Positions 16,407 through 47,317 of a stretch of DNA of 64,000 nt are shown one piece after another (the first letter of the stretch is position 1; each line of letters begins with the position of its first letter). The position numbers and the translations under genes are program-made. This DNA is from Rugalucina vietnamica (Eukaryota > Mollusca > Bivalvia > Lucinida > Lucinidae). The notes beneath the pieces were generated by a model. It was not told the DNA's origin and did not search any database. It saw only the letters and a list, made by a program, of their open reading frames with translations. The DNA lies in NCBI GenBank assembly GCA_964017185.1, contig OZ024869.1, forward strand, positions 64,928,931 to 64,992,930, read 5' to 3'.

Positions 16407-17272
16407 TTTGAGGAGTATATGATGGCTATGGCTCAAATACCTGTTTGAGATATCTTGCATGCAATATTTTCGTATTTCTTTTTCAAAGGGACATAGTTCA
16501 GGAAACGGGAATAACTTGGACAGTCATGAAAAATGTATGTGTCAACTATTTGTTCATGAGAAATATGTATATAAATTTTAATACCCTTGCATTCATTGTT
16601 CAAATTATCTAATTTTAACAAAAAAAAATGAAAAAATCAATTATACGATTTTCAAAATACCATAATTCCGACAAAATTTAATCAAAACTTCTCAAAAGTT
16701 AATCAGCTGATCTAGAATTTTCAGCCCCAATCGCTATACTAGTTATGAAAGCTTAACCTGAAGGAGCTATTTTGGTACCACTGTTTATTCGGTTAATGAC
16801 CCCTCATGTTGCAATATGGTCCAGAGATCAAAGGACTGTCATAATGATGTGATTACCTCACCTCTACAGGGGGCAATAGAGAGGCGCCTACAGGATAACC
16901 ACTGTGATCCACTGTTTATTGCCTTTATGATCCCTGATAACCTACCTCCCTCTGCAATCAATATCGATTTTACCTATTTGGGCTTCTACCTGTATTCAGA
17001 GTCAATGTCAGGCTACCAGGTTTTCAAGTGTCCTGTTCATTGATCAGCTAATGACCCTAAATAGACAGGAGTCTTTAAATACTTGCACAACGTATTTTCC
17101 AATATAAATTTCATAGGGATGTAATTAAAAAAGGTCATCTCGGAAATGATAAAAATAAGGGTCAACTATTTTTACATGTAGCGTGTGTCGAATATGTATA
17201 TAAATTTTCAAAACCCTAGCTTGAACCGTTCAAAAGTTTCAAATTTCACAGACAGTGTGACTATCACAATAA
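16407..17272. other. Non-coding stretch, no gene recognised
   Basis: One open frame of 75 codons at 16816-17043 (plus) reads RRLQDNHCDPLFIAFMIPDN in part but has no recognisable domain or splice context. Otherwise nothing is supported. Confidence 0.35.
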
Positions 17273-19380
17273 GTAATAGTTAGAGTATGGAGGAGAGATC
17301 AATACGAAAATTATAGACCCGGCACGTGAACTTAAAGCCGACCGAGCGCAGCGAGGGAGGCTTTAAGTTCACGTACCGGGTCTATAATTTTCGTATTGAC
17401 CGATTCCGACATACTCTAACTGACTTATATACTGGCTGCTTTGTTTCGTTATAACAACTGCTATTAATCTTAAGACTGCAAGCCTGTTGGCCAAACCTTG
17501 CGCAGCATATTTAGACCAATTATATTCCGCTTAACTTTCTTTTCTCGCGACATGGCATATTAGCCAATATATCCCACGGACTTAACGAGGTAACTAACTG
17601 TGCACGATATTTACATTTCTTCGTGCAATCATGAACAAATTGAACCTTCACAGTAATTTCCCTTTTAAACGTCGTTAAACGTATTGCTTCTATGATAAAC
17701 GCAAATAATTCAATACCATCTAAGTATGATTTTACATAAGTACATAATGTGCTTAAATTGATGAGCTAGTGTATATGGATCTGTCAAGGGCTAATCTCCT
17801 TGCTTGAAAGACAGAGGACCATTTGATGCCCGGCTGTTTTGGGGGAAAACAGCTGGTCAAAAATAACTGTGAAGTTCGTTCCTACTGCCCGGTTTCTCAT
17901 TCAACTCACACTAACCCTAACCTTCTACTAACAATGGAACCAGGAGCAAGAGCTATTTTCACACAATGTATGCGACGATTCGTTTAATATAACTTTTGGG
18001 GGAATTGTAAATAAATGAAACCGGAAATTTCTTTTCTTTTCTTTCACAGCAAAGGATTTTAAATACTCTGTAGGAAAAAATGCATTTAACGATAGAAAGA
18101 TTCTCAACCACGATTTGCTAAAAAAACTTCCAATCAGCCTTGGAAATATTTAATGTCTTTGAACACGGCGGAAAACATTTTTGCGGTGCATCTGACCCAT
18201 TACATAATGTACTAACCTTTTATTGAGTCTAATATAAAAATAACAACGTTTATATACTGGCTCCTTTGTTTCGAGCAGGTCTCTAACAAACATATACACC
18301 TACTCAACAAAGGAAGTTTTGGCGGTAGGTGTATAAGTTTCCCGCCGTTTATTATACACCGGTGTATAATATCCGGCGGGAAACTTATACACCGGTCTCT
18401 AATATCAGGCGGGAAACTTATCAGTCCTCCTGTGTACATTATGTAATGGGTCAGATGCACCGCAAAAATAATGTTTTCGCCGTGTTCAAAGACATTAAAT
18501 ATTTCCAAGGCTGATTGGAAGCTTTTTTAGCAAATCGTGGTAGAGAATCTTTCTATCGTTAAATGCATTTTCTTCCTACAGAGTATTTAAAATCCTTTGC
18601 TGTGAAAGAAAAGAAAAGAAATTTCCGGTTTCATTTATTTACAATTCCCCCAAAAGTTATATTAAACGAATCGTCGCATAAATTTGTGTGAAAATAGCTC
18701 TTGCTCCCTGGTTCCATTGTTAGTAGAAGGTTAGGGTTAGTGTGAGTTGAATGAGAAACCTGGCAGTAGGAACGAACTTCACACAGTTATTTTTGACCAG
18801 CTGTTTTCCCCCAAAACAGCCGGGCATCAAATGGTCCTCTGTCTTTCAAGCAAGGAGATTAGCCCTTGACAGATCCATATACACTAGCTCATCAATTTAA
18901 GCACATTATGCAGTTATGTAAAATCATACTTAGATGGTATTGAATTATTTGCGTTTATCATAGAAGCAATACGTTTAACGACGTTTAAAAGGGAAATTAC
19001 TGTGAAGGTTCTATTTGTTCATGATTGCACGAGGAAATGTAAATATCGTGCACAGTTAGTTACCTCGTTAAGTCCGTGGGATAGATTGGCTAATATGCCA
19101 TGTCGCGAGAAAATAAAGTTAAGCGGAATATAATTGGTCTAAATATGCTGCGCAAGGTTTGGCCAACAGGCTTGCAGTCTTAAGATTAATAGCAGTTGTT
19201 ATAACGAAACAAAGCAGCCAGTATATAAGTCAGTTAGTGTATGTCGGAATCGGTCAATACGAAAATTATAGACCCGGCACGTGAACTTAAAGCCTCCCTC
19301 GCTGCGCTCGGTCGGCTTTAAGTTCACGTGCCGGGTCTATAATTTTCGTATTGACCTCTCCTCCATACTCTAACTATTAC
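17273..19380. mobile_element. Giant inverted repeat (arms about 940 bp) with a hairpin at each end
   Basis: The left arm 17273-18213 and right arm 18434-19380 are near-identical reverse complements, from GTAATAGTTAGAGTATGG to CCATACTCTAACTATTAC at the outer ends and CATTACATAATGTAC at the inner ends. Each outer end carries its own hairpin with a 41-bp stem (17299-17339 with 17359-17399; mirrored near 19254-19354), with GAGCGCAGCGAGGG in or near the loop. The arms differ at only a few bases, so duplication or gene conversion is recent. No coding capacity. Confidence 0.85.
18250..18430. repeat. Segment S, palindromic spacer of the giant inverted repeat
   Basis: Runs from TTATATACTGGCTCCTTTG to GGAAACTTATCAGTCC. 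It holds an inner palindrome centred on TATACACCGGTGTATA, flanked by GTTTCCCGCC and GGCGGGAAAC. Its outer motif TATATACTGGCT.CTTTGTTTCG also occurs inside both long arms, so the segment and the arms share ancestry. Confidence 0.8.
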
Positions 19381-19388
19381 ATATCTAC

Positions 19389-19570
19389 AGGGGGACTGAT
19401 AAGTTTCCCGCCTGATATTAGAGACCGGTGTATAAGTTTCCCGCCGGATATAATACACCGGTGTATAATAAACGGCGGGAAACTTATACACCTACCGCCA
19501 AAACTTCCTTTGTTGAGTAGGTGTATATGTTTGTTAGAGACCTGCTCGAAACAAAGGAGCCAGTATATAA
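19389..19570. repeat. Segment S', inverted copy of S outside the right arm
   Basis: Reverse complement of 18250-18430, starting AGGGGGACTGATAAGTTTCC and ending GGAGCCAGTATATAA. It lies beyond the right arm rather than next to S, which gives the order A-S-A'-S'. Confidence 0.85.
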
Positions 19571-24640: not shown

Positions 24641-26677
24641 TCATCTTCTTATCATTTCAAAACAAAATATATGTCGACACTCCTCAGTTTCTGGATAGAC
24701 CGAAATTATAAACGTATTTGCGTCATTCAAAAAAGAAATCGACCATGGCCTCACATTTATCTCGAATATATTTGTCAGGGTTCCATTCGAAGTGACCTTG
24801 TGAATAGTCTTTGATCCAAATGCACAAACCAGTATACTTCCATCAACGCCTACAGCTATTCCCTGTGGGCATCGAAGTTTCGGATGAGTGTAGACATACT
24901 TCGGGCAGGACACCAGTGTTTTATGGGCGGAGTGTATAGCCAAAACACTGTTTGCCCCTTCATCAGAGGCAAAGACAACATCCCGGAATGTATCAGACTC
25001 CAAAAACGTTACTCTGCGAAACAGTACTTGACCATCTGTTTTGTGCGATAATGTGTGCAGCATTTTCCCCTTCATTGAGAACATTTGTAGAGAATCCTCA
25101 CAAGACACTACTATGGCTTTTCGAAGGCATGTTATCCCGAAGCAAGGGGCTTTTACAGTCCACGTAGAATCACATTTCAACGGAGAGCCTAGTATACTAA
25201 CGGTTGTCATAAACTTAACGACTATATCGTTGACATAAACATCAAAAAAGCGAACAACGTTCTCCTGTGGGTATGAAACAGCCACACAAGTTTCAGTGAT
25301 TTTTGCAATATCCCAAGGTGAAGTGCCAAGCTTAGTTCGTGAAAGCAATTTTTTGTCTTTAATCAACTTCAGTGATTTATCACATTTGTCAACAATGATC
25401 AGACATTCGTTGGGCATTGGCATTATGGATGTAATCCAGCATTTATTTTCACTTGCCGATTGTGCAACTGGTACTCGTTTTAGAAGTTCGGTGTTTATAT
25501 TTCCTGTATCCTCTGTAATGACAGGCCCTATGGATTCAAACAAATCAGCATACCATGTTGTACGTGAATCGTTTTCTCTTGATAGATACGTTTGCAACTG
25601 ATTATCTGGTTCGTGTTCATTATGGATTGTTGTCTCGAGTTCGTTTTGAACAGACTGTACACTTTCATTTAAGGGCCCAAGCCCAGAAGTGCATGTGACG
25701 GGTTCTTTCTCTTTTGTCCCTATATCTCCAACTTGTAAAATCCCAAACGTTTTAAGTTTTTCCCTAAACGTTATCAAGTTTTCGTCAAACTTGAATCCTA
25801 GGAGTCTTTCCACCGGTTGTGATAAACTATTGGAGTTGTCTTGTATCTTATTTCTCAACTCTTTCATTTTCTGTTTCACCTTCAATAATCGAATCACTGT
25901 TTGCATTTCTGAATCTTCTGCGAAGGGCATATCCAGTGCAAGTTTATACTCATCAATGGATTCTTCTGTTGTATTACACCATTGTATATCTGCTTCAATG
26001 CCTCGAAGCAAGTCATCTGAAACCTCGTCAATGTTTTCGAATACACCTGTCGCAACAGTATTCAAATGTTCCACAATCTCATCCTTCTTCGCTCTTATAT
26101 CATGCATAATATTTTCTCTACTAATCACAAGCGAATTCATACGCTTATGCCTTGTTCTTCTGAATTCGTTTACAAATATCATTGATGTTGTTAATTCACT
26201 AGCTAACTCGTTGGCTTCCTTTGCTGCTTCGAAGTGTTTAGCAACCTCTGTTAGCTCTTTAACGTCTTCACATCTCCTGTGATCGGTAGCAATGCACATG
26301 GGACAACACAACTGTTCGTGGTCAACACAAAACAGGCGGATTGTGAACTCAGGGTGACATTCGCACATAACTATATCGTCTCGCGCTGTTTCTTTTTCTG
26401 ATTCTTCCATATAGCAAAGGATCCAGTGATTGACCGGGAATTGCTCTGCCCATGTGTCCCTCTGTGTGTATGCCCTCGGTGGTTTGGTTTGTGCCCGGCA
26501 TACTGGACAATGGAAGGCCGATAAGAGACCAGCTTGAGATGTGTTTGTAATGTGACCTTGTAGACACGCTGTACAGAATGTGTGTAGACATGGTAAAGAT
26601 CTAGGTCGTTTGAAGGTGTCCAGACAGACAGGACATGTAATATCCACTTTCTGGTTGGACGGAATATATTCTGCCAT
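24641..26677 (-). CDS. TRIM-type RING E3 ubiquitin ligase with NHL-like C-terminus
   Basis: A single open exon of 678 codons. The RING finger is at residues 15-60 in C3HC4 order (C15, C18, C30, H32, C35, C38, C57, C60). A B-box spans about 105-136 (CECHPEF..., C117, C125, C128, H133). A coiled-coil region covers about 140-310, and an NHL/beta-propeller-like region about 410-678 includes LRCPQGIAVGVDGSILVCAF. By family, the RING recruits a ubiquitin-charged E2, the coiled coil dimerises and the propeller binds the target; the target is unknown. TRIM-NHL-like genes are heavily expanded in bivalves, often intronless and linked to innate immunity. The start is the ATG of MAEYIPSNQ. The 13 codons upstream begin with TTG and overlap an apparent splice acceptor, so they are probably not coding. 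All zinc ligands seen are intact. It cannot be named as a specific vertebrate orthologue. Confidence 0.92.
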   Translation of the reverse strand: MAEYIPSNQKVDITCPVCLDTFKRPRSLPCLHTFCTACLQGHITNTSQAGLLSAFHCPVCRAQTKPPRAYTQRDTWAEQFPVNHWILCYMEESEKETARDDIVMCECHPEFTIRLFCVDHEQLCCPMCIATDHRRCEDVKELTEVAKHFEAAKEANELASELTTSMIFVNEFRRTRHKRMNSLVISRENIMHDIRAKKDEIVEHLNTVATGVFENIDEVSDDLLRGIEADIQWCNTTEESIDEYKLALDMPFAEDSEMQTVIRLLKVKQKMKELRNKIQDNSNSLSQPVERLLGFKFDENLITFREKLKTFGILQVGDIGTKEKEPVTCTSGLGPLNESVQSVQNELETTIHNEHEPDNQLQTYLSRENDSRTTWYADLFESIGPVITEDTGNINTELLKRVPVAQSASENKCWITSIMPMPNECLIIVDKCDKSLKLIKDKKLLSRTKLGTSPWDIAKITETCVAVSYPQENVVRFFDVYVNDIVVKFMTTVSILGSPLKCDSTWTVKAPCFGITCLRKAIVVSCEDSLQMFSMKGKMLHTLSHKTDGQVLFRRVTFLESDTFRDVVFASDEGANSVLAIHSAHKTLVSCPKYVYTHPKLRCPQGIAVGVDGSILVCAFGSKTIHKVTSNGTLTNIFEINVRPWSISFLNDANTFIISVYPETEECRHIFCFEMIRR

Positions 26678-26695
26678 CTCTGAAATAAGTTTTAT
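26678..26695 (-). promoter_or_regulatory. Probable splice acceptor before the TRIM start codon
   Basis: On the minus strand ACTTATTTCAG precedes AG-ATG. This suggests a 5' non-coding exon further upstream (higher coordinates), spliced two bases before the start codon. Confidence 0.45.
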
Positions 26696-26717
26696 AAAGC
26701 TGAGGTGTATGTTCAAC

Positions 26718-28828: not shown

Positions 28829-29086
28829 TCTTAGTACTTCGAAAGAGTTATTAACATGAGGGAAAGACGGATAAACAAGCGGCGTCTACCGTTATTTTTA
28901 CTTGAAGCAGCAATTAATAATGACAGTGATCTCGTTAATACTTTCCTGTCTTACTAAGCTAGTCAGTGCATTATACTGGACTGACTGTGTACATGTTTGT
29001 CAAAATTGACCAATTAGAGACATGGCGCCACAATTCGTTTTACAGTATCAAAGTTGAGATAGTGTCACAGGGGCGGAAAAAGAACG

Positions 29087-29157
29087 TGGCCCACCGGGAC
29101 TCGAACCCAGGGTCTCTCGCTTACCGTGCGAGCACTCTACCACTGAGCTACCGAGCC
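29087..29157 (-). tRNA. tRNA-Thr-like (GGT), copy 1, one-base acceptor deletion
   Basis: Cloverleaf as in the other copies, but the 3' acceptor strand is one base short (plus strand GGCCCACC instead of GGCCCGACC), which spoils acceptor pairing. 71 nt. Confidence 0.4.
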
Positions 29158-29323
29158 ACTCGATCGACCGGTTACATTTTCCCCCTGCTTAATTAGATTC
29201 GTCCCCGAATCTGCTCGGAACCATGCCGGAACCGACGAGACAGTCTCTATCAGGTTGCTGCTCGCAGCCCGAGCACGGACCCACACTGAGCCACCAAATG
29301 TCACACGGGGCGGAAAAAGAACG

Positions 29324-29395
29324 TGGCCCGACCGGGACTCGAACCCAGGGTCTCTCGCTTACCGTGCGAGCACTCTACCACTGAGCTAACGAGCC
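29324..29395 (-). tRNA. tRNA-Thr-like (GGT), copy 2
   Basis: 72-nt cloverleaf. Acceptor GGCTCGT against TCGGGCC has its innermost pair mismatched; D, anticodon and T stems are intact. TTTTT follows the 3' end. Confidence 0.5.
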
Positions 29396-29554
29396 ACTCG
29401 ATCGACCGGTTACATTTTCCCCCTGCTTAATTAGATTCGTCCCCGAATCTGCTCGGATCCATGCCGGAACCGTAGAGACAGTCCCTTTGCTGCTAGCAGC
29501 CCGAGCACGGACCCACACTGAGCCACCAAATGTCACAGGGGCGGAAAAAGAACG

Positions 29555-29626
29555 TGGCCCGACCGGGACTCGAACCCAGGGTCTCTCGCTTACCGTGCGA
29601 GCACTCTACCACTGAGCTACCGAGCC
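29555..29626 (-). tRNA. tRNA-Thr-like (GGT), copy 3, complete cloverleaf
   Basis: Acceptor GGCTCGG/TCGGGCC (7 pairs, two G-T), D stem GCTC/GAGT, anticodon stem CTCGC/GCGAG with loop ACGGTAA, T arm CTGGG-TTCGAGT-CCCGG, discriminator A, then a TTTTT stop. Boxes A and B are good. The oddity is the loop: position 33 is C instead of the near-invariant T, and anticodon GGT is not normally used for Thr in eukaryotic nuclei (AGT is). It probably derives from tRNA-Thr(AGT) and may be transcribed but not used in decoding. Confidence 0.55.
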
Positions 29627-29785
29627 ACTCGATCGACCGGTTACATTTTCCCCCTGCTTAATTAGATTCGTCCCCGAATCTGCTCGGATCCATGCCGGAA
29701 CCGTAGAGACAGTCCCTTTGCTGCTAGCAGCCCGAGCACGGACCCACACTGAGCCACCAAATGTCACAGGGGCGGAAAAAGAACG

Positions 29786-29857
29786 TGGCCCGACCGGGAC
29801 TCGAACCCAGGGTCTTTCGCTTACCGTGCGAGCACTCTACCACTGAGCTAACGAGCC
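29786..29857 (-). tRNA. tRNA-Thr-like (GGT), copy 4
   Basis: As copy 3 but with GGCTCGT in the acceptor and one weakened pair in the anticodon stem (plus strand GTCTTTCGC instead of GTCTCTCGC). Confidence 0.45.
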
Positions 29858-29925
29858 ACTCGATCGACCGGTTACATTTTTCCCCCACACTAGCCACCAA
29901 ATGTCACAGGGGCGGAAAAAGAACG

Positions 29926-29997
29926 TGGCCCGACCGGGACTCGAACCCAGGGTCTCTCGCTTACCGTGCGAGCACTCTACCACTGAGCTACCGAGCC
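29926..29997 (-). tRNA. tRNA-Thr-like (GGT), copy 5
   Basis: Identical in the tRNA body to copy 3; member of the shorter 140-bp unit. Confidence 0.55.
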
Positions 29998-30065
29998 ACT
30001 CGATCGACCGGTTACATTTTTCCCCCACACTAGCCACCAAATGTCACAGGGGCGGAAAAAGAACG

Positions 30066-30137
30066 TGGCCCGACCGGGACTCGAACCCAGGGTCTCTCGC
30101 TTACCGTGCGAGCACTCTACCACTGAGCTACCGAGCC
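30066..30137 (-). tRNA. tRNA-Thr-like (GGT), copy 6
   Basis: Identical in the tRNA body to copies 3 and 5; last unit of the array. Confidence 0.55.
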
Positions 30138-30248
30138 ACTCGATCGACCGGTTACAATAGCACCAAAGAAACATCATCTTATACCTCAAACCAACAATTA
30201 ACATTAATAAGACAATTACTTTATTCTTCTAAAAGAAAAATAAACGGC

Positions 30249-32292: not shown

Positions 32293-32909
32293 TACAAGTT
32301 AGGAAGTGTCTCGGCGTCCGGTACCGGACGAATTAGGCTAAAGTCTCCGCGTCCGGCAATGCCGGACACCGAGCCTATCCTCACTGGAATGGCTCCGTGT
32401 CCGGCACTACATTTTTCCTACCAGTTTCTTGGTTGTAAGTAGTAAAAAGTACAAATAATTTGATTACTTTCAATACAGTTTGAAGAATAAATATTTTTTC
32501 ATTCGTGTTCCGCCATTTGGAAAAGGGGATGTAACTCTTAATTTGTTTATGTCTTGTGTAAAGATGAAACTGTAGCGAATTCAATATCATGTTGCATTTT
32601 GGTTGTTGAATAAAAAATATATAATCTTGTTGTTGTTTTTTTTTATCAAATATAATTATCTATCAAATAAGTTCTTTAAGCCCATGTATTTAAACTTGCG
32701 TTAAATGATGCCAATTAGCCTCGTCTTCTCATCTTTAGGTAGCTATAGCCAGCTAACCGTGAATTGCGCGCCTCTTTTGTTCCTTTAGAAATGATCTCCG
32801 ACAACAAACGACCATTCTCAAGTAAAACAAACAAACAATATAATTACGTAAATCAGAAAACAATTCATCCATTAAGATGTGCAATGCAAAAATAAATTAT
32901 GTTGTCTCT

Positions 32910-33440
32910 GTTTTTGACCAGATCAGACACAAACCGATGATCATGCAGATGCAACTTATATAAACGTACGACCAATGATTAAAACGTGATGAATATTTAG
33001 TTAAGCTCGTCATATAAAAATGTTTCGTTTATTTTCGTCCTGATCAGACACAAACCGGTGATCATGCAGATGCAATTTATATGATATTCGTTATAAGAAC
33101 TTATATATGGTCTATTTTCCACACAAGTATATAACTAACCTTGTTTTATCATGTTGAACTTCGACCAGATAAGACACTAATCGGCTAGTATGCATAGGCA
33201 ACATAGAAGCATTCCATTTGCCGTTGATTAGAACGTACGATCTGTGTCTAACGCATGCATATAATGTTTAAATAACGTTGTTATCATAAAAAATGTTTTA
33301 TTTGATTTTCGACCAGATCAGACACAAACCGGCTAGTATGCATAGGCAAAATAGAAGCATTCCATTTGCCGGTTATATGACCTACGTTAATAGAACGTAC
33401 GATCTATGTCTAACACATGTATATAATGTTTAAATAAAGG
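32910..33440 (+). repeat. Four tandem units inside the Mutator-like element
   Basis: GACCAGATCAGACACAAACC or a variant begins at about 32918, 33038, 33163 and 33311. Units 1-2 continue with GATCATGCAGATGCAA, and units 3-4 with CTAGTATGCATAGGCAA and GAAGCATTCCATTTGCCG. Two pairs of units have therefore diverged separately. Confidence 0.8.
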
Positions 33441-33523
33441 TCGCAAGGCACTCTCTTGCATTTGGCAAAAATTAATTACATGTAATATGTACACGGGTAT
33501 AAGTTTTATTACTTTTGATCCAA

Positions 33524-33596
33524 AACATAGATTATGGGTACTCATTAGAACCGCTTCGGCGAAGCGGTTCTAACGTGTACCCACAATCAATGTTTT
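33524..33596. repeat. Strong hairpin, GAACCGCTTCGGCGAAGCGGTTC
   Basis: Perfect inverted repeat AGAACCGCTTCG/CGAAGCGGTTCT with weaker outer pairing (AAAACATAGATTATGGGTAC against GTACCCACAATCAATGTTTT). A worn relative occurs at 62185-62250. Confidence 0.85.
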
Positions 33597-34382
33597 CAGC
33601 TTTAATATCAAAAAGATCAAAAATTTTCTTATGCAATTTTCAAATTTTACAGCTGAAAAAAAATCTGTGTAGATTCTATAATACATGGGCGTTGTGTAGT
33701 GACATGATAAAGGTTTATGAAGTAATTCGTGCAGTAGCGCATTTAGATGGACCTTTTATCATCATACTGAGATGACGCATCTCACTAGCTTTTGACACTG
33801 AAAATAATTACAACAAGTGAGTGGAAAATTGCTCAGCTAATTAGGACATTTAGGCATAAATCAATGAAAAGCAGCCTTCATGAGAATCACTTTTCATTTA
33901 ATATAGTAATTATCATTAACAATTGTGAGTAAGTCAAATAATCAATGTATCTTTTACTTTTTGCTGATTAAAAAAGTTTTACCAGCATTTACCATTTAGC
34001 ATATACGGAGCGAACAAATATCTTATATTTCTGTGTCACTAGCCCTTATATCAAACGGCATACTGCGATTGGACAAATAGTCACTGTAAAAATCCAATAT
34101 GGCGGCGTTCGATGTGAAAAATATCTAGCGAATTCATTTTGTGACACATTAGCCGGTATTTAATCTGATTTATGTTTCTTTTGTTATCATTTACTACCAG
34201 GAAACTTGTAAGAAAAATGTAGTGCCGGACACGGAGCCATTCCAGTGCGGATAGGCTCGGTGTCCGGCATTGCCGGACGCGGAGACTCTAGCCTAATTCG
34301 TCCGGTACCGGACGCCGAGACACTTCCTACAAGTTAAAGCTTTTTAAAAATCTACGCAGAATAATGGCTCAGTGGTTTCGTT

Positions 34383-34413
34383 GGCAATATCCACTCTTCT
34401 GACCCGCGGGTCA
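34383..34413 (+). repeat. Left terminal inverted repeat (31 bp)
   Basis: Exact reverse complement of 46142-46172. It ends in the palindrome TGACCCGCGGGTCA. Confidence 0.9.
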
Positions 34414-34649
34414 ATTAAATTCCATGCATTTTTAATTGTTAATAAACACATTAAAACCAATAAATTTTCTTGATCTGGATCACTCAGGCGCTTGCAATGA
34501 AAATCGGTTGATTCCGTATCGAACTACGGAAAATTACGAATATTAATTTATTTCCCGCGTAATTTGCGCACTTTTCATATTGTCAGAATTACATTTGGCG
34601 ATCGCCAAAAATATTTCTTATATTATAAAAAACTTATGAATAAATGTAT

Positions 34650-35785
34650 GCTATCATATTGTGCTTTATTCCGTAAATGCCCGTTATAGATGTCGCCTAG
34701 GGCAATATTGACATAGAAAATAAAACTGAAAATTGTACGATTGCTTTGCCGTAGCGTGTGTTGCACTTTATTCCGTTAAAGTCTTAAAATACAACAACAT
34801 GTATTCCTTCAAACCAATATGCTTAAATTACGGAATCAATCTAATGCTTCAGCATAATTTACCCATAATTAGATTTCTGTCAATTATGTAGTGTATTTGT
34901 TTTTCTTTGATTTGTTGGAACAACTGTGCTTTAACGGAATAAATCTCATTGCATTATAAATGTGGGCTCATAATGAATGCACATATTTTATTCTGCACTT
35001 TATTCCGTTAAGTCTTTAAAAAATAAAAATAAAACTGAGATCCTTTAAGAGCAGTGAGTATATTTTCGAGTAAATTTCTGTCAATAAAGTAGAGCTTTTG
35101 TTTTTTCTTTGATTTGTTGGCACAACTGTGCTTTAACGGAATAAATCTCATTACATTACAAATGTGCGCTTATAATGAATGCACATATTTTATTCTGCAC
35201 TTTATTCCGTTAAAGTCTTTAAAAAAATGTATTCCTTCAAAGAAGTATAAAAAGTTTTACAATCTTATTGTTCATCATACCAAGATCATACATGCAGTTT
35301 ATGCTTCATCATAATTTATCCATAATTAAATTTCTGTCATTTAAGTAGAGTATTTTTTTTTCTTTGATTCGTTGAAACAACTCTGCTTTAACGGAATAAA
35401 TCTAATTGCATTATAAATGTGCGCACATATTGTATGATTGCATTTCCGTAACGTGTATTGCACTTTATTCCGTTACTGAAAGTTTAAAAAAAAAACTAAA
35501 AAAAAAAAAAAAAAAAAAACTTTTTTTTTTGCTTTTACCTGTTTACGCTATCAATCTAATGCTTCATCATAATTTATCCATAATTAAATTTCACTAATTT
35601 ACGTAGAGTATGTCTTTTCCCTTGATTTCTTGGAATTACTGTGCTTTAACGGAATAAATCTAATTGCATTATAAATGTAGGCTCAAAATGAATACACATA
35701 TTTTATTCTTTTCATGTTCTTGGCATGCTACATGCGACGTCATGTTTCAAGAAAGTGTGCTTCAACGGAATAAAACTAATATGAT
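34650..35785. repeat. Tandem block of AACGGAATAAA / TTTATTCCGTT units
   Basis: TGCTTTAACGGAATAAA recurs near 34927, 35127, 35383 and 35640, with variants near 35760. TGCACTTTATTCCGTTA recurs near 34763, 34996, 35199 and 35458. Each unit of about 200-250 bp thus starts and ends with inverted copies of the same core. Units also share GCATTATAAATGT and CACATATTTTATTC. Confidence 0.85.
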
Positions 35786-35859
35786 ATATGTAATCCTTTT
35801 TATCTGACCTGGATCACTTCCGTACGTGACAGTAAGACATACGCCAAAAGTTCAGAGGG

Positions 35860-38800
35860 CGGGTCAGATTAGTATTGACTATATATAATAATGTGTTCTG
35901 AACTTCTGGCCCGTGCATGGTGGCGGGTCCGATTAGTACTGGCTATAAAAATGCTTATTTTCAACGGCGCATTGCCAGAAACTCGCATTCGTTTAAGACA
36001 CTTGCCCCGAAAAGATTCCAAGCCCCATTTTCTCTGGCATTATCCCCCAAAGAAACCCTTTTCCCGGGGAAACCTTCCCCTTGCATTGCATCGAAGAAAT
36101 TAATGATGTTTCTCTCTCTTTATATATAATCCTGTTATCTGACCCGCTCATAATAGTTGATAGTTAAAGCAGATTTCCGTAGCGCGGGTCCGAAGACAGG
36201 ATTATATATACAGACGAAGCCCTCCACTACTAACATAATGAAAGAAGCGATGCAAGGGGAAGGTTTCCCCAGGGAAAGGGTTTTCCTTGGGGGATATTGC
36301 GCCAGAAAATGGGGCTTGGACTCTTTTCGGGGCAAGTGTCTGAAACGAATGCGAGTTTCTGACAATACGCCGTTGAAAATAAGCATTTTAAGAGCCGGTA
36401 CTACACTGACCCGCCCCCATGTTAAACGCACTAAATTTCCGTAGCGCGGGTCCGAAGACAGGATTATATATACAGACGAAGTCAATTCGTAGTAATATTC
36501 TGAAATATGTCAAACGTTAACAATTTCGCATTTGATTGCCTGTACTAATCGGACCCGCCTCTATATAAATCATATGAAATTTCAGTAGCGTGGGTCCGAA
36601 GACAGGATTATATATATACAGACGAAGTCCTCCACTACTAACATACTGAAAGATGCAATGCAAGGGGAAGGTTTCCCCGGGGAAAGGGTTTTCCTTGGGG
36701 GATATTGCGCCAGGAAATGGGGCTTGGAATCTTTTCGGGGCAAGTGTCTTAAACTAGTGCGAGTTTCTGACAATGCGCCGTTGAAAATAAGCATTTTAAG
36801 AGCCAGTACTAATCGGACCCGCCCCATGTTAAAAAACACTAAATTTCCGTAGCGCGGGTCCTAATACAGGATTATATATACAGACGAAGCCAGTCCGTAG
36901 TAATATTCTGAAATATGTAAAACGTTGACAATTTCGCATTTTGATTGCCTGTACTGATCGGACCCGCCCCTATATAAATTATATGAAATTTCCGTATCGC
37001 GGGTCCGAAGACAGGATTATATATATACAGACGAAGCACTCCACTACTAACATACTGAAAGATGCAATGCAAGGGGAAGGTTTCCCCGGGGGGATATTGC
37101 GCCAGGAAATGGGGCTTGGAATCTTTTCGGGGCAAGTGTCTTAAACTAGTGCGAGTTTCTGACAATGCGCCGTTGAAAATAAGCATTTTAAGAGCCAGTA
37201 CTAATCGGACCCGCCCCATGTAAAAAAACACTAAATTTCCGTAGCGCGGGTCCGAAGACAGGATTATATATACAGACGAAGCCAGTCCGTAGTAACATTA
37301 TGAAATATGTCAAACGTTGACAATTTCGCATTTTGATTGCCTGTACTAATCGGACCCGCCTCTATATAAATTATATGAAATTTCCGTAGCGCAGGTCCGA
37401 AGACAGGATTATATATACAGACGAAGCCAGTCCGTAGTAATATTCTGAAATATGTCAAACGTTGACAATTTCGCATTTTGATTGCCTGTACTAATCGGAC
37501 CCGCCTCTATATAAATTATATGAAATTTCCGTAGCGCGGGTCCGAAGACAGGATTATATATATACAGACGAAGCACTCCACTACTAACATACTGAAAGAT
37601 GCGATGCAAGGGGAAGGTTTCCCCGGGGAAAGGGTTTTCCTTGGGGGATATTGCGCCAGGAAATGGGGCTTGGAATCTTTTCGGGGCAAGTGTCTTAAAC
37701 TAGTGCGAGTTTCTGACAATGCGCCGTTGAAAATAAGCATTTTAAGAGCCAGTACTAATCGGACCCGCCCCATGTAAAAAACACTAAATTTCCGTAGCGC
37801 GGGTCCGAAGACAGGATTATATATATACAGACGAAGCACTCCACTACTAACATACTGAAAGATGTGATGCAAGGTGAAGGTTTCCCCGGGGAAAGGGTTT
37901 TCCTTGGGGGATATTGCGCCTGGAAATGGGGCTTGGAATCTTTTCGGGGCAAGTGTCTTAAACTAGTGCGAGTTTCTGACAATGCGCCATTGAAAATAAG
38001 CATTTTAAGAGCCAGTACTAATCGGACCCGCCCCATGTAAAAAAACACTAAATTTCCGTAGCGCGGGTCCTAAGACAGGATTATATATACAGACGAAGCC
38101 AGTCCGTAGTAACATTATGAAATATGTCAAACGTTGACAATTTCGCATTTTGATTGCCTGTACTAATCGGACCCGCCCCTATATAAATTATATGAAATTT
38201 CCGTATCGCGGGTCCGAAGACAGGATTATATATATACAGACGAAGCACTCCACTACTAACATACTGAAAGATGCAATGCAAGAGGAAGGTTTCCCCGGGG
38301 AAAGGGTTTTCCTTGGGGGATATTGCGCCAGGAAATGGGGCTTGGAATCTTTTCGGGGCAAGTGTCTTAAACTAGTGCGAGTTTCTGACAATGCGCCGTT
38401 GAAAATAAGCATTTTAAGAGCCAGTACTAATCGGACCCGCCCCATGTAAAAAAAACACTAAATTTCCGTAGCGCGGGTCCGAAGACAGGATTATATATAC
38501 AGACGAAGCCAGTCCGTAGTAACATTATGAAATATGTCAAACGTTGACAATTTCGCATTTTGATTGCCTGTACCAAATGGACCCGCCTCTATATAAATTA
38601 TATGAAATTTCCGTAGCGCGGGTCCGAAGACAGGATTATATATACAGACGAAGCCAGTCCGTAGTAATATTCTGAAATATGTCAAACGTTGACAATTTCG
38701 CATTTTGATTGCCTGTACTAATCGGACCCGCCTCTATATAAATTATATGAAATTTCCGTAGCGCGGGTCCGAAGACAGGATTATATATATATACAGACGA

Positions 38801-41800
38801 AGCACTCCACTACTAAAATACTGAAAGATGCGATGCAAGGGGAAGGTTTCCCCGGGGAAAGGGTTTTCCTTGGGGGATATTGCGCCAGGAAATGGGGCTT
38901 GGAATCTTTTCGGGGCAAGTGTCTTAAACTAGTGCGAGTTTCTGACAATGCGCCGTTGAAAATAAGCATTTTAAGAGCCAGTACTAATCGGACCCGCCCC
39001 ATGTAAAACACACTAAATTTCCGTAGCGCGGGTCCGAAGACAGGATTATATATATACAGACGAAGCACTCCACTACTAACATACTGAAAGATGCGATGCA
39101 AGGGGAAGGTTTCCCCGGGGAAAGGGTTTTCCTTGGGGGATATTGCGCCAGGAAATGGGGCTTGGAATCTTTTTGGGGCAAGTGTCTTAAACTAGTGCGA
39201 GTTTCTGACAATGCGCCGTTGAAAATAAGCATTTTAAGAGCCAGTACTAATCGGACCCGCCCCATGTAAAAAAAACACTAAATTTCCGTAGCGCGGGTCC
39301 GAAGACAGGATTATATATACAGACGAAGCCAGTCCGTAGTAACATTATGAAATATGTCAAACGTTGACAATTTCGCATTTTGATTGCCTGTACCAAATGG
39401 ACCCGCCTCTATATAAATTATATGAAATTTCCGTAGCGCGGGTCCGAAGACAGGATTATATATACAGACGAAGCCAGTCCGTAGTAATATTCTGAAATAT
39501 GTAAAACGTTGACAATTTCGCATTTTGATTGCCTGTACTGATCGGACCCGCCCCTATATAAATTATATGAAATTTCCGTAGCGCGGGTCCGAAGACAGGA
39601 TTATATATATATACAGACGAAGCACTCCCCTACTAACATACTGAAAGATGCAATGCAAGGGGAAGGTTTTCCCGGGGAAAGGGTTTTCCTTGGGGGATAT
39701 TGCGCCAGGAAATGGGGAAGGTTTCCCCGGGGAAAGGGTTTTCCTTGGGGGATATTGCGCCAGGAAATGGGGCTTGGAATCTTTTCGGGGCAAGTGTCTT
39801 AAACTAGTGCGAGTTTCTGACAATGCGCCGTTGAAAATAAGCATTTTAAGAGCCAGTACTAATCGGACCCGCCCCATGTAAAAAAAACACTAAATTTCCG
39901 TAGCGCGGGTCCGAAGACAGGATTATATATACAGACGAAGCCAGTCCGTAGTAACATTATGAAATATGTCAAACGTTGACAATTTCGCATTTTGATTGCC
40001 TGTACCAAATGGACCCGCCTCTATATAAATTATATGAAATTTCCGTAGCGCGGGTCCGAAGACAGGATTATATATACAGACGAAGCCAGTCCGTAGTAAT
40101 ATTCTGAAATATGTCAAACGTTGACAATTTCGCATTTTGATTGCCTGTACTAATCGGACCCGCCTCTATATAAATTATATGAAATTTCCGTAGCGCGGGT
40201 CCGAAGACAGGATTATATATATATACAGACGAAGCACTCCACTACTAAAATACTGAAAGATGCGATGCAAGGGGAAGGTTTCCCCGGGGAAAGGGTTTTC
40301 CTTGGGGGATATTGCGCCAGGAAATGGGGCTTGGAATCTTTTCGGGGCAAGTGTCTTAAACTAGTGCGAGTTTCTGACAATGCGCCGTTGAAAATAAGCA
40401 TTTTAAGAGCCAGTACTAATCGGACCCGCCCCATGTAAAACACACTAAATTTCCGTAGCGCGGGTCCGAAGACAGGATTATATATATACAGACGAAGCAC
40501 TCCACTACTAACATACTGAAAGATGCGATGCAAGGGGAAGGTTTCCCCGGGGAAAGGGTTTTCCTTGGGGGATATTGCTCCAGGAAATGGGGCTTGGAAT
40601 CTTTTCGGGGCAAGTGTCTTAAACTAGTGCGAGTTTCTGACAATGCGCCGTTGAAAATAAGCATTTTAAGAGCCAGTACTAATCGGACCCGCCCCATGTA
40701 AAAAAAACACTAAATTTCCGTAGCGCGGGTCCGAAGACAGGATTATATATACAGACGAAGCCAGTCCGTAGTAACATTATGAAATATGTCAAACGTTGAC
40801 AATTTCGCATTTTGATTGCCTGTACCAAATGGACCCGCCTCTATATAAATTATATGAAATTTCCGTAGCGCGGGTCCGAAGACAGGATTATATATACAGA
40901 CGAAGCCAGTCCGTAGTAATATTCTGAAATATGTAAAACGTTGACAATTTCGCATTTTGATTGCCTGTACTGATCGGACCCGCCCCTATATAAATTATAT
41001 GAAATTTCCGTAGCGCGGGTCCGAAGACAGGATTATATATATATACAGACGAAGCACTCCCCTACTAACATACTGAAAGATGCAATGCAAGGGGAAGGTT
41101 TTCCCGGGGAAAGGGTTTTCCTTGGGGGATATTGCGCCAGGAAATGGGGAAGGTTTCCCCGGGGAAAGGGTTTTCCTTGGGGGATATTGCGCCAGGAAAT
41201 GGGGCTTGGAATCTTTTCGGGGCAAGTGTCTTAAACTAGTGCGAGTTTCTGACAATGCGCCGTTGAAAATAAGCATTTTAAGAGCCAGTACTAATCGGAC
41301 CCGCCCCATGTAAAAAAAACACTAAATTTCCGTAGCGCGGGTCCGAAGACAGGATTATATATACAGACGAAGCCAGTCCGTAGTAACATTATGAAATATG
41401 TCAAACGTTGACAATTTCGCATTTTGATTGCCTGTACCAAATGGACCCGCCTCTATATAAATTATATGAAATTTCCGTAGCGCGGGTCCGAAGACAGGAT
41501 TATATATACAGACGAAGCCAGTCCGTAGTAATATTCTGAAATATGTCAAACGTTGACAATTTCGCATTTTGATTGCCTGTACTAATCGGACCCGCCTCTA
41601 TATAAATTATATGAAATTTCCGTAGCGCGGGTCCGAAGACAGGATTATATATATATACAGACGAAGCACTCCACTACTAAAATACTGAAAGATGCGATGC
41701 AAGGGGAAGGTTTCCCCGGGGAAAGGGTTTTCCTTGGGGGATATTGCGCCAGGAAATGGGGCTTGGAATCTTTTCGGGGCAAGTGTCTTAAACTAGTGCG

Positions 41801-44800
41801 AGTTTCTGACAATGCGCCGTTGAAAATAAGCATTTTAAGAGCCAGTACTAATCGGACCCGCCCCATGTAAAACACACTAAATTTCCGTAGCGCGGGTCCG
41901 AAGACAGGATTATATATATACAGACGAAGCACTCCACTACTAACATACTGAAAGATGCGATGCAAGGGGAAGGTTTCCCCGGGGAAAGGGTTTTCCTTGG
42001 GGGATATTGCGCCAGGAAATGGGGCTTGGAATCTTTTCGGGGCAAGTGTCTTAAACTAGTGCGAGTTTCTGACAATGCGCCGTTGAAAATAAGCATTTTA
42101 AGAGCCAGTACTAATCGGACCCGCCCCATGTAAAAAAAACACTAAATTTCCGTAGCGCGGGTCCGAAGACAGGATTATATATACAGACGAAGCCAGTCCG
42201 TAGTAACATTATGAAATATGTCAAACGTTGACAATTTCGCATTTTGATTGCCTGTACTAATCGGACCCGCCTCTATATAAATTATATGAAATTTCCGTAG
42301 CGCAGGTCCGAAGACAGGATTATATATACAGACGAAGCCAGTCCGTAGTAATATTCTGAAATATGTCAAACGTTGACAATTTCGCATTTTGATTGCCTGT
42401 ACTAATCGGACCCGCCTCTATATAAATTATATGAAATTTCCGTAGCGCGGGTCCGAAGACAGGATTATATATATATACAGACGAAGCACTCCACTACTAA
42501 AATACTGAAAGATGCGATGCAAGGGGAAGGTTTCCCCGGGGAAAGGGTTTTCCTTGGGGGATATTGCGCCAGGAAATGGGGCTTGGAATCTTTTCGGGGC
42601 AAGTGTCTTAAACTAGTGCGAGTTTCTGACAATGCGCCGTTGAAAATAAGCATTTTAAGAGCCAGTACTAATCGGACCCGCCCCATGTAAAACACACTAA
42701 ATTTCCGTAGCGCGGGTCCGAAGACAGGATTATATATATACAGACGAAGCACTCCACTACTAACATACTGAAAGATGCGATGCAAGGGGAAGGTTTCCCC
42801 GGGGAAAGGGTTTTCCTTGGGGGATATTGCTCCAGGAAATGGGGCTTGGAATCTTTTCGGGGCAAGTGTCTTAAACTAGTGCGAGTTTCTGACAATGCGC
42901 CGTTGAAAATAAGCATTTTAAGAGCCAGTACTAATCGGACCCGCCCCATGTAAAAAAAACACTAAATTTCCGTAGCGCGGGTCCGAAGACAGGATTATAT
43001 ATACAGACGAAGCCAGTCCGTAGTAACATTATGAAATATGTCAAACGTTGACAATTTCGCATTTTGATTGCCTGTACCAAATGGACCCGCCTCTATATAA
43101 ATTATATGAAATTTCCGTAGCGCGGGTCCGAAGACAGGATTATATATACAGACGAAGCCAGTCCGTAGTAATATTCTGAAATATGTAAAACGTTGACAAT
43201 TTCGCATTTTGATTGCCTGTACTGATCGGACCCGCCCCTATATAAATTATATGAAATTTCCGTAGCGCGGGTCCGAAGACAGGATTATATATATATACAG
43301 ACGAAGCACTCCCCTACTAACATACTGAAAGATGCAATGCAAGGGGAAGGTTTTCCCGGGGAAAGGGTTTTCCTTGGGGGATATTGCGCCAGGAAATGGG
43401 GAAGGTTTCCCCGGGGAAAGGGTTTTCCTTGGGGGATATTGCGCCAGGAAATGGGGCTTGGAATCTTTTCGGGGCAAGTGTCTTAAACTAGTGCGAGTTT
43501 CTGACAATGCGCCGTTGAAAATAAGCATTTTAAGAGCCAGTACTAATCGGACCCGCCCCATGTAAAAAAAACACTAAATTTCCGTAGCGCGGGTCCGAAG
43601 ACAGGATTATATATACAGACGAAGCCAGTCCGTAGTAACATTATGAAATATGTCAAACGTTGACAATTTCGCATTTTGATTGCCTGTACCAAATGGACCC
43701 GCCTCTATATAAATTATATGAAATTTCCGTAGCGCGGGTCCGAAGACAGGATTATATATACAGACGAAGCCAGTCCGTAGTAATATTCTGAAATATGTCA
43801 AACGTTGACAATTTCGCATTTTGATTGCCTGTACTAATCGGACCCGCCTCTATATAAATTATATGAAATTTCCGTAGCGCGGGTCCGAAGACAGGATTAT
43901 ATATATATACAGACGAAGCACTCCACTACTAAAATACTGAAAGATGCGATGCAAGGGGAAGGTTTCCCCGGGGAAAGGGTTTTCCTTGGGGGATATTGCG
44001 CCAGGAAATGGGGCTTGGAATCTTTTCGGGGCAAGTGTCTTAAACTAGTGCGAGTTTCTGACAATGCGCCGTTGAAAATAAGCATTTTAAGAGCCAGTAC
44101 TAATCGGACCCGCCCCATGTAAAACACACTAAATTTCCGTAGCGCGGGTCCGAAGACAGGATTATATATATACAGACGAAGCACTCCACTACTAACATAC
44201 TGAAAGATGCGATGCAAGGGGAAGGTTTCCCCGGGGAAAGGGTTTTCCTTGGGGGATATTGCGCCAGGAAATGGGGCTTGGAATCTTTTCGGGGCAAGTG
44301 TCTTAAACTAGTGCGAGTTTCTGACAATGCGCCGTTGAAAATAAGCATTTTAAGAGCCAGTACTAATCGGACCCGCCCCATGTAAAAAAAACACTAAATT
44401 TCCGTAGCGCGGGTCCGAAGACAGGATTATATATACAGACGAAGCCAGTCCGTAGTAACATTATGAAATATGTCAAACGTTGACAATTTCGCATTTTGAT
44501 TGCCTGTACTAATCGGACCCGCCTCTATATAAATTATATGAAATTTCCGTAGCGCAGGTCCGAAGACAGGATTATATATACAGACGAAGCCAGTCCGTAG
44601 TAATATTCTGAAATATGTCAAACGTTGACAATTTCGCATTTTGATTGCCTGTACTAATCGGACCCGCCTCTATATAAATTATATGAAATTTCCGTAGCGC
44701 GGGTCCGAAGACAGGATTATATATATACAGACGAAGCACTCCACTACTAACATACTGAAAGATGCGATGCAAGGGGAAGGTTTCCCCGGGGAAAGGGTTT

Positions 44801-45595
44801 TCCTTGGGGGATATTGCGCCAGGAAATGGGGCTTGGAATCTTTTCGGGGCAAGTGTCTTAAACTAGTGCGAGTTTCTGACAATGCGCCGTTGAAAATAAG
44901 CATTTTAAGAGCCAGTACTAATCGGACCCGCCCCATGTAAAAAAACACTAAATTTCCGTAGCGCGGGTCCGAAGACAGGATTATATATACAGACGAAGCC
45001 AGTCCATAGTAATATTCTGAAATATGTCAAACGTTGACAATTTCGCATTTTGATTGCCTGTACTAATCGGACCCGCCCCTATATAAATTATATGAAATTT
45101 CCGTAGCGCGGGTCCGAAGACAGGATTATATATATACAGACGAAGCCCTCCACTACTAACATACTGAAAGATGCGATGCAAGGGGAAGGTTTCCCCGGGG
45201 AAAGGGTTTTCCTTGGGGGATATTGCGCCAGGAAATGGGGCTTGGAATCTTTTCGGGGCAAGTGTCTTAAACTAGTGCGAGTTTCTGACAATGCGCCGTT
45301 GAAAATAAGCATTTTAAGAGCCAGTACTAATCGGACCCGCCCCATGTAAAAAAACACTAAATTTTCGTAGCGCGGGTCAGAAGACAGGATTATATATACA
45401 GACGAAGCCAGTCCGTAGTAATATTCTGAAATATGTCAAACGTTGACAATTTCGCATTTTGATTGCCTGTACTAATCGGACCCGCCTCTATATAAATTAT
45501 ATGAAATTTCCGTAGCGCGGGTTATATACGAAGCCATCCGCTACTAACATTCTGATAAATGCAAATCGTTGACATTTAAGCATTATTTCTAGCCT
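35860..45595. repeat. Satellite array of about 9.7 kb with two monomer types
   Basis: Monomer alpha (145 bp) and monomer beta (265 bp) share a head, AAATTTCCGTAGCGCGGGTC, followed by CGAAGACAGGATTATATATA, and a tail, GTACTAATCGGACCCGCC. Alpha carries GTCAAACGTTGACAATTTCG. Beta carries GGTTTCCCCGGGGAAAGGG and GCGAGTTTCTGACAATGCGC. Both edges (about 35.9-36.6 and 45.4-45.6 kb) are diverged and the core is nearly identical. The many frames of 66-119 codons here are products of repetition, not genes. Confidence 0.95.
38460..44396. repeat. Higher-order satellite: 820-bp and 612-bp units in series
   Basis: From 38460 the array runs in units of 820, 612, 820, 612, 820, 820, 612 and 820 bp. The 820-bp unit is alpha-alpha-beta-beta (145+145+265+265). 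The 612-bp unit is alpha-alpha-beta', where beta' (322 bp) has a 57-bp internal duplication around GGGGAAGGTTTCCCCGGGG. Corresponding units differ by very few bases, for example a shared GATATTGCTCCAGG variant at 40571 and 42823. Unit boundaries: 39280, 39892, 40712, 41324, 42144, 42964, 43576. Confidence 0.92.
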
Positions 45596-45610
45596 GTACT
45601 AATCTGACCC

Positions 45611-45676
45611 GCGCGAAGCTGATCTGCGTCTTTGATTTCGCATATGCAGATTGTTGGTTTTCCCATGAGACGACTC
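45611..45676 (+). mobile_element. MITE fragment, TGAGCC...GGCTCA family
   Basis: GCGAAGCTGATCTGCGTCTT and GCAGATTGTTGGTTTTCCCA match the right part of the copy at 57956-58191. It abuts the satellite's end. Confidence 0.7.
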
Positions 45677-46141
45677 AAATTTAGTTTCTCTTTGCGTCTC
45701 ATAATGAGAAAATGTTTCTGTAGACTTCTGTAATTTGATTTAATGCAAAAACATAGCTGAACAACTGCCTCTAGTAGATATTTTAAACTTTAACATAAAT
45801 GAAAAATAAACAATGTATCGTATACGCACAAATTAACGCTGATTTGGAACTGTACAGTTACGCTGACTGGTGATTTGTGGGCGCATACATAAAGTAGGTT
45901 TTCTTGTGAAAACAGTATGTTATTAAGAAGACGGGGCTTAAAACGTGTATTGCTGTCCGTTTCCGTAATGGGATTTGATTGGTGAATCCTAGTATATCCC
46001 ATAATAGTCATGATACGGAAATAACGCTGTCTCTCGAGAGATATGTTAATTTCTTCATGCAAGCGTCTAGATGACCATGATCAAAGTGAAATGCTTAAAA
46101 AGTAGCATTTTTTATTAATTAAATTCTGTGCAGAATTTATC
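45677..46141. other. Right inner flank of the 11.8-kb structure
   Basis: No gene or repeat recognised. Short ATTAATTAAATTCTG and its left counterpart AATTAAATTCCATGC weakly extend the terminal repeat. Confidence 0.4.
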
Positions 46142-46172
46142 TGACCCGCGGGTCAGAAGAGTGGATATTGCC
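46142..46172 (-). repeat. Right terminal inverted repeat (31 bp)
   Basis: Exact reverse complement of 34383-34413. Confidence 0.9.
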
Positions 46173-47001
46173 GTTTCGTTTAGGATTTTCTTAGCTGCAT
46201 ACCTATTCCATAGGTTGCGGGGCTTGTTTGGGTGTGGGTGAATATTTTGTTGTTAAAATATTGAGAACCTGATGGAATGTATGTGGTCTGGCAGTCTTCC
46301 GAACGCAGTGGTTTCTCTATGTAGTAGGACTAATCCTCTCCGGTTAAGCCCCATCCCCTGGTGTGGTATTGTCAGTTTGATGTTTCACCAGTAGACTATT
46401 CTGATTCTGATTCTGACTGCTTTGCAGTGATTTAGAAATTTATCTACATTTGCCTATTTAGAGCAATTTTCATTTGAAAAGCCATAACTTGTTAAGTTTT
46501 TACTTGAATTTCAAGGGAAGTAACTTTAAGTTTGGCAATTTCATTTATGAAAAGGTACAAGTAGGCAAAGATCAGGAAAAGGCGCAAAACTTGATGTTTT
46601 GTCATAAATTTTACTTTCTATAAGTAATTCTTGAATTGAATTACATTTCTTAGTTCAAATGCAATGATTAATTGATAACATTTTTTGAAATTTGTTTAGA
46701 CTAAAATTAGTGATTTTGTACTTTGCACGTTTTTCTAGTGTAATTGAGTTTGATATACCTCTCGATCAAATCAATATTTTGATGGCTTAACTATGTAGTA
46801 ACTTTGGCAAAATATTCGCATGCATGTGCGCTGACCCTTTTGGCCCTAGTTTTAAATGTGAAAGATTGGCACGCGACGTGCTGAAAGAACGGCATGCGAC
46901 ATGCTGTAACTCATGCCCAAACTTTGGATCCCTTTTTCTAAATTCTCCCACCCCCTTAATTTAAGCCCATTTGGTTTCACCTCATATTTCATAACCAATC
47001 C
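46173..47001. other. Non-coding stretch with one repeat fragment
   Basis: At 46553-46590, AAAGGTACAAGTAGGCAAAG and ATCAGGAAAAGGCGCAA are a stub of the dispersed GTACAAGTAGGC family. Nothing else supported. Confidence 0.5.
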
Positions 47002-47317
47002 GCAAGGATAATTCAAACTAAACACTAAAATGCAGCTTTAACTTACATTCTAAATCAAATTCAGCTCATTACTTCATTAAATCACTTGGAATTCTCTTGT
47101 AAATAAAATAGTTAAAATCTAAGCTGCATTTTCACTGATTTTGCTCCCCACAAAACCCCGCAAGGATAATTCAAACTAAACACTAAAATGCAGCTTTAAC
47201 TTACATTCTAAATCAAATTCAGCTCATTACTTCATTAAATCACTTGGAATTCTCTTGTAAATAAAATAGTTAAAATCTAAGCTGCATTTTCACTGATTTT
47301 GCTCCCCACAAAACAAC
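47002..47317 (+). repeat. Two-copy tandem duplication, period 158 bp
   Basis: GCAAGGATAATTCAAACTAA through TTTTGCTCCCCACAAAAC occurs twice in direct succession (47002-47159 and 47160-47317), with no difference seen. It is very recent, or possibly an assembly duplication. Each unit starts and ends near inverted AGCTGCATTTT/AAAATGCAGCTT. Confidence 0.95.

Follow-up and report, generated by a model that had tools for sequence, protein, structure and literature searches.

An internal satellite resembling the terminal repeats of a probable Merlin transposon in the bivalve Rugalucina vietnamica

Tandem repeats inside Merlin transposons and the seeding of satellites by transposons are already known. 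Merlin elements are marked by 5'-GG ends, target site duplications (TSDs) of 8 or 9 bp and a DDE_Tnp_IS1595 transposase; the survey that describes these marks also reports families with internal tandem repeats, for instance three to four units of 163 bp, and suggests the superfamily as a possible spreader of proto-satellites (PMC8101967). The three curated Merlin consensi of a bivalve library have a mean length of 1,635 bp (PMC10294476). Here we describe an element of 11,790 bp, measured from one terminal inverted repeat (TIR) to the other, in a 64,000-nucleotide stretch of the genome of the lucinid bivalve Rugalucina vietnamica (assembly GCA_964017185.1, contig OZ024869.1; hereafter the window, C1:64928931-64992930). 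It is very probably a single Merlin cut-and-paste insertion that lost its gene and carries a satellite array derived from its own end sequence. Compared with the surveyed Merlin elements, the family to which it belongs (family A) extends from 1.9 to 11.8 kb, has up to 48 units, a higher-order repeat and the core of its own TIR in the units, and is accompanied by a linked second gene. In the open-licence literature, no report was found of Merlin arrays containing their own TIR core across families, nor of the linked second gene.

Tetris, a non-autonomous foldback element of Drosophila virilis, contains tandem repeats of ~220 bp that have 37 bp (~80%) in common with its terminal domain; these repeats feed satellite arrays, and the element makes duplications of 8-10 bp (PMC4079207). 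The Tetris repeats lie within long TIRs and the transposase is given as unknown, its authors suggesting Mutator (PMC4079207). Unlike Tetris, family A has an internal array, an identified transposase and a pattern that recurs in several families; instead of the long, repeat-containing TIRs of foldback elements, its TIRs measure 31-40 bp and enclose the array. Helentrons are not known to insert with target duplication; family A has 8-bp duplications and a DDE transposase. The oyster Helentron Cg_HINE is non-autonomous and has central satellite-like arrays but, unlike family A, is of the rolling-circle type with subterminal inverted repeats (PMC7492417). In Galileo, a member of the P superfamily, tandem repeats were proposed to be secondary transposase binding sites; unlike family A, this element makes 7-bp duplications and its ~210-bp repeats, in up to three copies, are located in the TIRs (PMC3573991). 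Finally, all the 185-190-bp units of the VSAREP satellite from monitor lizards contain TGACCCGCGGGTCAGC, the first 14 bp of which are the palindrome TGACCCGCGGGTCA of our TIR (34400-34413, 46142-46155); the available text of that account mentions no transposon (the word 'transposon' occurs in it 0 times) (PMC5559828). This likeness, which came from a text search for the 12-mer GACCCGCGGGTC, may be due to chance, and the family-A copies contain neither the VSAREP 16-mer nor the second VSAREP motif.

Structure, copies and assignment of family A

The first-pass annotation of this DNA had proposed that a satellite block is framed by a perfect 31-bp inverted repeat that chance cannot explain. The two 31-mers are exact reverse complements that occur once each in the window, and chance alone would give only ~3e-9 inverted pairs of this length in 64 kb; if two mismatches are allowed, the repeat reaches 40 bp. 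That annotation overlooked the 8-bp target site duplication flanking the block: a perfect direct repeat, GTTTCGTT, lies directly outside both TIRs (chance ~2.5e-5). Since this duplication borders the TIRs, the block represents the insertion of a DNA transposon. The satellite is inside it, as proposed, but occupies only ~35.86-45.61 kb and is separated from the TIRs by arms of 1.4 kb (left) and 0.5 kb (right). The TIR has no match in viral and prokaryotic collections and the array unit has none in the viral collection, which is not surprising for eukaryotic DNA. The palindrome in which the TIR terminates also resembles two inverted nuclear-receptor half-sites.

A search of the genome (1.09 Gb, 47 contigs) for the TIR with at most 3 mismatches gave nine matches, and none for a reversed-pattern control. 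Eight of the nine pair into four complete elements, located on contigs C1 (the window), C16, C14 and C4 (Table 1); the ninth is a lone end of ~350 bp on C11. Each of the four elements is flanked by its own exact 8-bp duplication, different from the others, and bears GGCAAT at both termini. The array-bearing copies have ~48, 22 and 14 units and the C4 copy 0, which agrees with the expectation of the first-pass annotation that these ends would recur at other loci with few monomers or none between them.

The window copy shows no DDE_Tnp_IS1595 gene: it contains no open reading frame (ORF) of at least 120 amino acids (aa) with a start codon, the stop-to-stop frames that cross the array reach 148 aa at most, and a Pfam search with stop-free fragments, five from the element and two from its neighbour, returned two matches below the cut-off, neither of them to a transposase. 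Between the array and the right arm, the C16 copy carries 3.4 kb more than the window copy, and this segment encodes a 540-aa transposase (C16:27766252-27764630, minus strand; DDE_Tnp_IS1595, PF12762, E=1.1e-22). The right arm of the window copy starts partway through a dispersed repeat, of which C16 has ~140 bp more; therefore, the window copy is the deleted one, and ~3.4 kb including the transposase gene were lost by internal deletion. About 2 bp, judged by eye, are common at the deletion joint, and the C14 copy has another joint. The catalytic blocks DES, SD.W and TN..E are aligned in all ten transposase proteins compared. The GG termini, the 8-bp TSDs and the DDE_Tnp_IS1595 transposase of C16, with its DDE residues, place the family in the Merlin superfamily.

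The heptamer TTCCGTW, counted on both strands, is found 15 times in the left arm (1,436 bp), 45 times in the array and twice in the right arm, against five times in the 52,194 bp of the window outside the element. The array units contain the TIR half-sites in inverted order, mostly GGACCCGC ... GCGGGTCC, and their orientation is uniform except at the left edge. The 48 anchors are spaced by 144-146, 247-267 or 321 bp, and once by 127 bp. In the centre, the three full copies of a 1,432-bp higher-order repeat are identical pairwise at 1430, 1432 and 1430 of 1432 positions, while the edge units diverge.

The left arm is 96-98% identical among the C1, C16 and C14 copies and 91-92.5% identical between these and C4. 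The first 1.6 kb of the array are also 95-96% identical in the first three, so that the element already carried the array prior to the dispersal of these copies. Its origin is accordingly not at the window locus, a correction to the earlier proposal of a satellite grown in and from a mobile element; the copy of the TIR core in the unit and the matching of internal repeats to their own TIRs in five families (see below) support that proposal. The spacing of the array is specific to each locus, with the 1,432-bp order in C1 and mainly a 146/264 alternation in C16, which suggests that homogenisation continued after insertion. The start of the inverted edge unit of the array is common to all four copies, C4 breaking off after ~50 bp of it. 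For this reason the C4 copy was dropped as a candidate for a pre-array ancestor; it is probably a deletion product, and gives no proof of an ancestor without an array.

Internal repeats and terminal repeats in family A and its relatives

Within the repeat unit of family A, the inner half of the TIR is present in diverged form, as the first-pass annotation had sensed from the likeness of the monomers to the TIR core. The two halves of the terminal TGACCCGCGGGTCA stand apart in the units. For the right-hand box, extended as GCGGGTCCGAAGACAGGAT, 39 sites agree with the TIR core in 16/19 positions and a further site in 17/19; the best match in the remainder of the window is 14/19. This 19-mer was picked after inspection; the full TIRs were used in the test of the whole 31-mer and in the comparison of families. 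When the 31-bp TIR was aligned to a 720-bp stretch of the array, it scored 25, a value attained in none of 1000 shuffles and in 4 of 1000 31-mers taken from elsewhere in the window. Among the 92 exact half-sites in the window array, five have the T of the TIR (TGACCCGC) and all five are in the outermost units, a placement equally extreme in 1 of 200,000 permutations. In C14, both TIR-type half-sites (2/2) are at the left edge. The edge units may thus be older and nearer to the TIR, and the G variant may have spread during amplification.

Related elements form four other families, B to E (Table 1). The TIRs of B, C and D also have GG termini, and DDE_Tnp_IS1595 is found in B (E=2.9e-19), E (3.3e-15) and C (1.7e-20), in transposases only ~37-51% identical to that of family A. 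For nine elements and five TIRs, ungapped internal matches scoring at least 22 were counted after trimming 60 bp at each end, which are excluded from the counts; the end coordinates of the C2 element are off by a few bases. Matches to the element's own TIR amount to 41, 19, 15 and 0 in the family-A copies of C1, C16, C14 and C4, 22 in B, 11 and 18 in C, 5 in D and 8 in E. Matches between families are 0, save one of the TIR of D in the C16 copy of family A and the pair formed by B and E (11 and 11). In an earlier version of the comparison, based on short stretches of array, the own-TIR scores were 25 (A), 38 (B), 34 (C) and 12 (D), those between families 12-18 and the shuffle maxima 19-22; the C9 array of family E scores 24 with its own TIR, for a shuffle maximum of 20. 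In five families of the clade, the internal repeats therefore match the TIR core of their own family. The arrangement of the boxes varies: the units of family C contain inverted pairs of nearly whole TIR cores, and the boxes of family B are direct. As a baseline, arrays with units of at least 100 bp and at least 2.5 copies were found at two places in 80,651 bases outside the elements. One array of 147-bp units x5.9 (L048, C5:15975163-15976023) lies ~4 kb outside the family B element.

The linked second gene, ORF2, encodes 124 aa in C16 (L025, C16:27767026-27766652) and has no convincing match in a Pfam search. It has 30 matches in the genome, eight of them of equal score on six contigs. A transposase sequence, in one case a fragment, was present in the fetched stretch at six of the 11 ORF2 loci examined, and certain elements retain ORF2 yet show no transposase. 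The transposase itself has at least 76 matches in the genome. When ten transposases of this genome are placed in an unrooted tree, a long branch (support 1.0) separates four distant sequences from the six members of the clade.

Table 1. Features of the window element, its family-A copies and related families (positions without a contig refer to the window)
Feature	Position	Strand	Length	TSD	Remarks
Left target site duplication	34375..34382	.			GTTTCGTT; same as 46173-46180
Left TIR	34383..34413	+			GGCAATATCCACTCTTCTGACCCGCGGGTCA; starts GG, terminates in palindrome TGACCCGCGGGTCA; exact inverse of 46142-46172
Left arm	34414..35849	+			diverged 200-260-bp repeats carrying TTTATTCCGTTAAAG in both orientations; 91-98% identity among four family-A copies
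Inverted edge unit of array	35858..36080	-			TIR-type half-site GCGGGTCA at 35859
Satellite array	36128..45611	+			48 anchors; units ~145, 264, 321 bp
Homogenised centre	38712..43827	+			1,432-bp higher-order repeat; full copies from 38712, 40144, 42396
Internal deletion junction	45610..45613	+			array half-site fused to the middle of a dispersed repeat
Right arm	45612..46141	+			95.6% identity, 574 columns including TIR, to C16 right end
Right TIR	46142..46172	-			exact inverse of left TIR
Right target site duplication	46173..46180	.			GTTTCGTT; same as 34375-34382
Family A, C1 copy	C1:64963313-64975102		11,790 bp	GTTTCGTT	48 array anchors
Family A, C16 copy	C16:27763578-27773537		9,960 bp	AAGAGTAT	22 array anchors
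Family A, C14 copy	C14:1881069-1886207		5,139 bp	ATTTTGGT	10 anchors, ~14 units (four spacings double)
Family A, C4 copy	C4:26334367-26336237		1,871 bp	AAGGTGGT	0 units
Family B	C5:15980266-15986971		6,706 bp	8 bp	TIR; transposase frame 554 aa; ORF2 with one stop; 252-bp units x9.6
Family C	C6:39995845-40004340		8,496 bp	8 bp	TIR; 680-aa frame; ORF2 split in two
Family C, second copy	C4:45166330-45169706		3,377 bp	8 bp	TIR; ORF2, no transposase seen
Family D	C5:46974759-46979817		5,059 bp	8 bp	TIR; ORF2 only, no transposase seen
Family E	C2 and C9			not found	matching ends; 216-bp units x8.1 on C9

Origin and possible role of the array

Several scenarios may be considered for the block. It is hardly conceivable that the paired 31-mers come from independent copies of some dispersed repeat or from an assembly error, given the 8-bp duplication around the window element and the pairing of eight of the nine genomic matches into elements with duplications of their own. 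Another superfamily could be involved, as hAT, P and Mutator elements also make 8-bp duplications and the length of the duplication by itself cannot separate these candidates; the transposase of C16 would then be a nested insertion. This is very improbable, since the GG ends occur together with PF12762, the relatives on C5 and C6 have the gene within their own GG TIRs and 8-bp duplications, and a scan of the segment restricted to C16 gave no exact inverted match of 11 bp spanning more than 1.5 kb. It is just as improbable that a satellite already present in the host was captured or hit by a transposon and resembles the TIR by coincidence: the match to the TIR exceeds the shuffles and is family-specific, three copies have the same array edge and the TTCCGTW motif is present throughout the element. 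By far the most probable explanation remains a Merlin insertion with an array of its own making. Judging from its structure and from the gene of its relative, the non-autonomous window copy would be moved in trans by the enzyme that a full copy, for example the one on C16, encodes. The array would have arisen through duplication of the end sequence within the element, and its near-identical centre, diverged edges and locus-specific higher-order repeat suggest that unequal exchange or gene conversion enlarged and homogenised it.

The reason for the resemblance between array and TIR is harder to decide. One possibility is that a Merlin clade with a linked second gene repeatedly builds, in each family, an internal satellite from its own putative transposase-binding site and holds it matched to the TIR while the latter evolves, in which case the array would be a working part of the element. 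Its boxes may serve as additional binding sites by which transposase is recruited or titrated, and this would keep the array in step with the TIR. We propose this only tentatively. A serious competitor, although short of probable, is that the array is a passive by-product without function: the TIR would have been copied by slips of replication or repair and spread by unequal exchange, and the likeness to the own TIR would merely reflect a recent origin. The near-identical centre and diverged edges are consistent with unequal exchange, the C4 copy has no array, and in the family-A unit a single box closely resembles the TIR. Nevertheless, the likeness recurs in several families and the transposases of B, C and E stand at only ~37-51% identity to that of A, so a passive array would have to be re-seeded repeatedly; the units of family C, moreover, contain inverted pairs of nearly whole TIR cores. 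Other observations weigh against a TIR-derived and TIR-matched working array. The left-hand box of the family-A unit has its heptamer in common with the TIR, yet its identity is 10-15/19, and one of the five TIR-type half-sites of C16 is interior, the other four being near an end. The C4 copy has a good TSD yet no array, so that the array may be dispensable for movement, provided that it did not disappear once the copy had inserted. The TIRs of B and E are alike and these two families count as one. Over 500 cells, shuffled TIRs gave a mean of 0.164 matches, with four cells at 3 or more and a maximum of 28. The TIR of family D scores 12 with the array delimited by Tandem Repeats Finder (shuffle mean 14.8), its five own-TIR matches lying elsewhere in the interior, outside that array. 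One member of the clade (L039) showed no large array in 9.9 kb, in which its ends were not found. In favour of the main reading, the four distant Merlin loci (30-33% in local alignment) all lacked ORF2 and any large tandem array within ~4 kb, their single tandem repeat being a 22-bp unit x1.9, although the elements may extend beyond this distance.

Neighbouring features and significance

A structural scan of the window for TIRs with TSDs revealed a second element (32302-34327), 55 bp to the left of the main one, with ~139-bp TIRs (95.7%), a GG start, nested palindromes (GTCCGGTACCGGAC) and a 9-bp duplication (TACAAGTTA); it is perhaps another non-autonomous Merlin. The window also contains an inverted repeat whose arms measure ~950 bp (97.6%), together with an additional 198-bp pair at 96.5% (17269-19570), a tandem of six tRNA-Thr-like units (anticodon GGT) with periods of 231 and 140 bp (29063-30156), a tandem duplication of 158 bp at 100% (47000-47314) and an ORF of 691 aa with a RING finger on the minus strand (24641-26716), which we take to be TRIM-like.

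The origin of satellites is an old question, and few cases have been caught in the act. Here, one genome presents several families at different stages: the array-bearing copies of family A have ~14, 22 and 48 units, family B has 252-bp units x9.6 and family E 216-bp units x8.1. Most of these arrays are tied to an identified transposase and their units are traceable to the element's own ends, which makes the step from transposon to satellite directly testable. They also raise the idea that tandem, putative binding sites are selected rather than passive. If this were true, the transposon would be a generator of satellite DNA and its array would not be junk.

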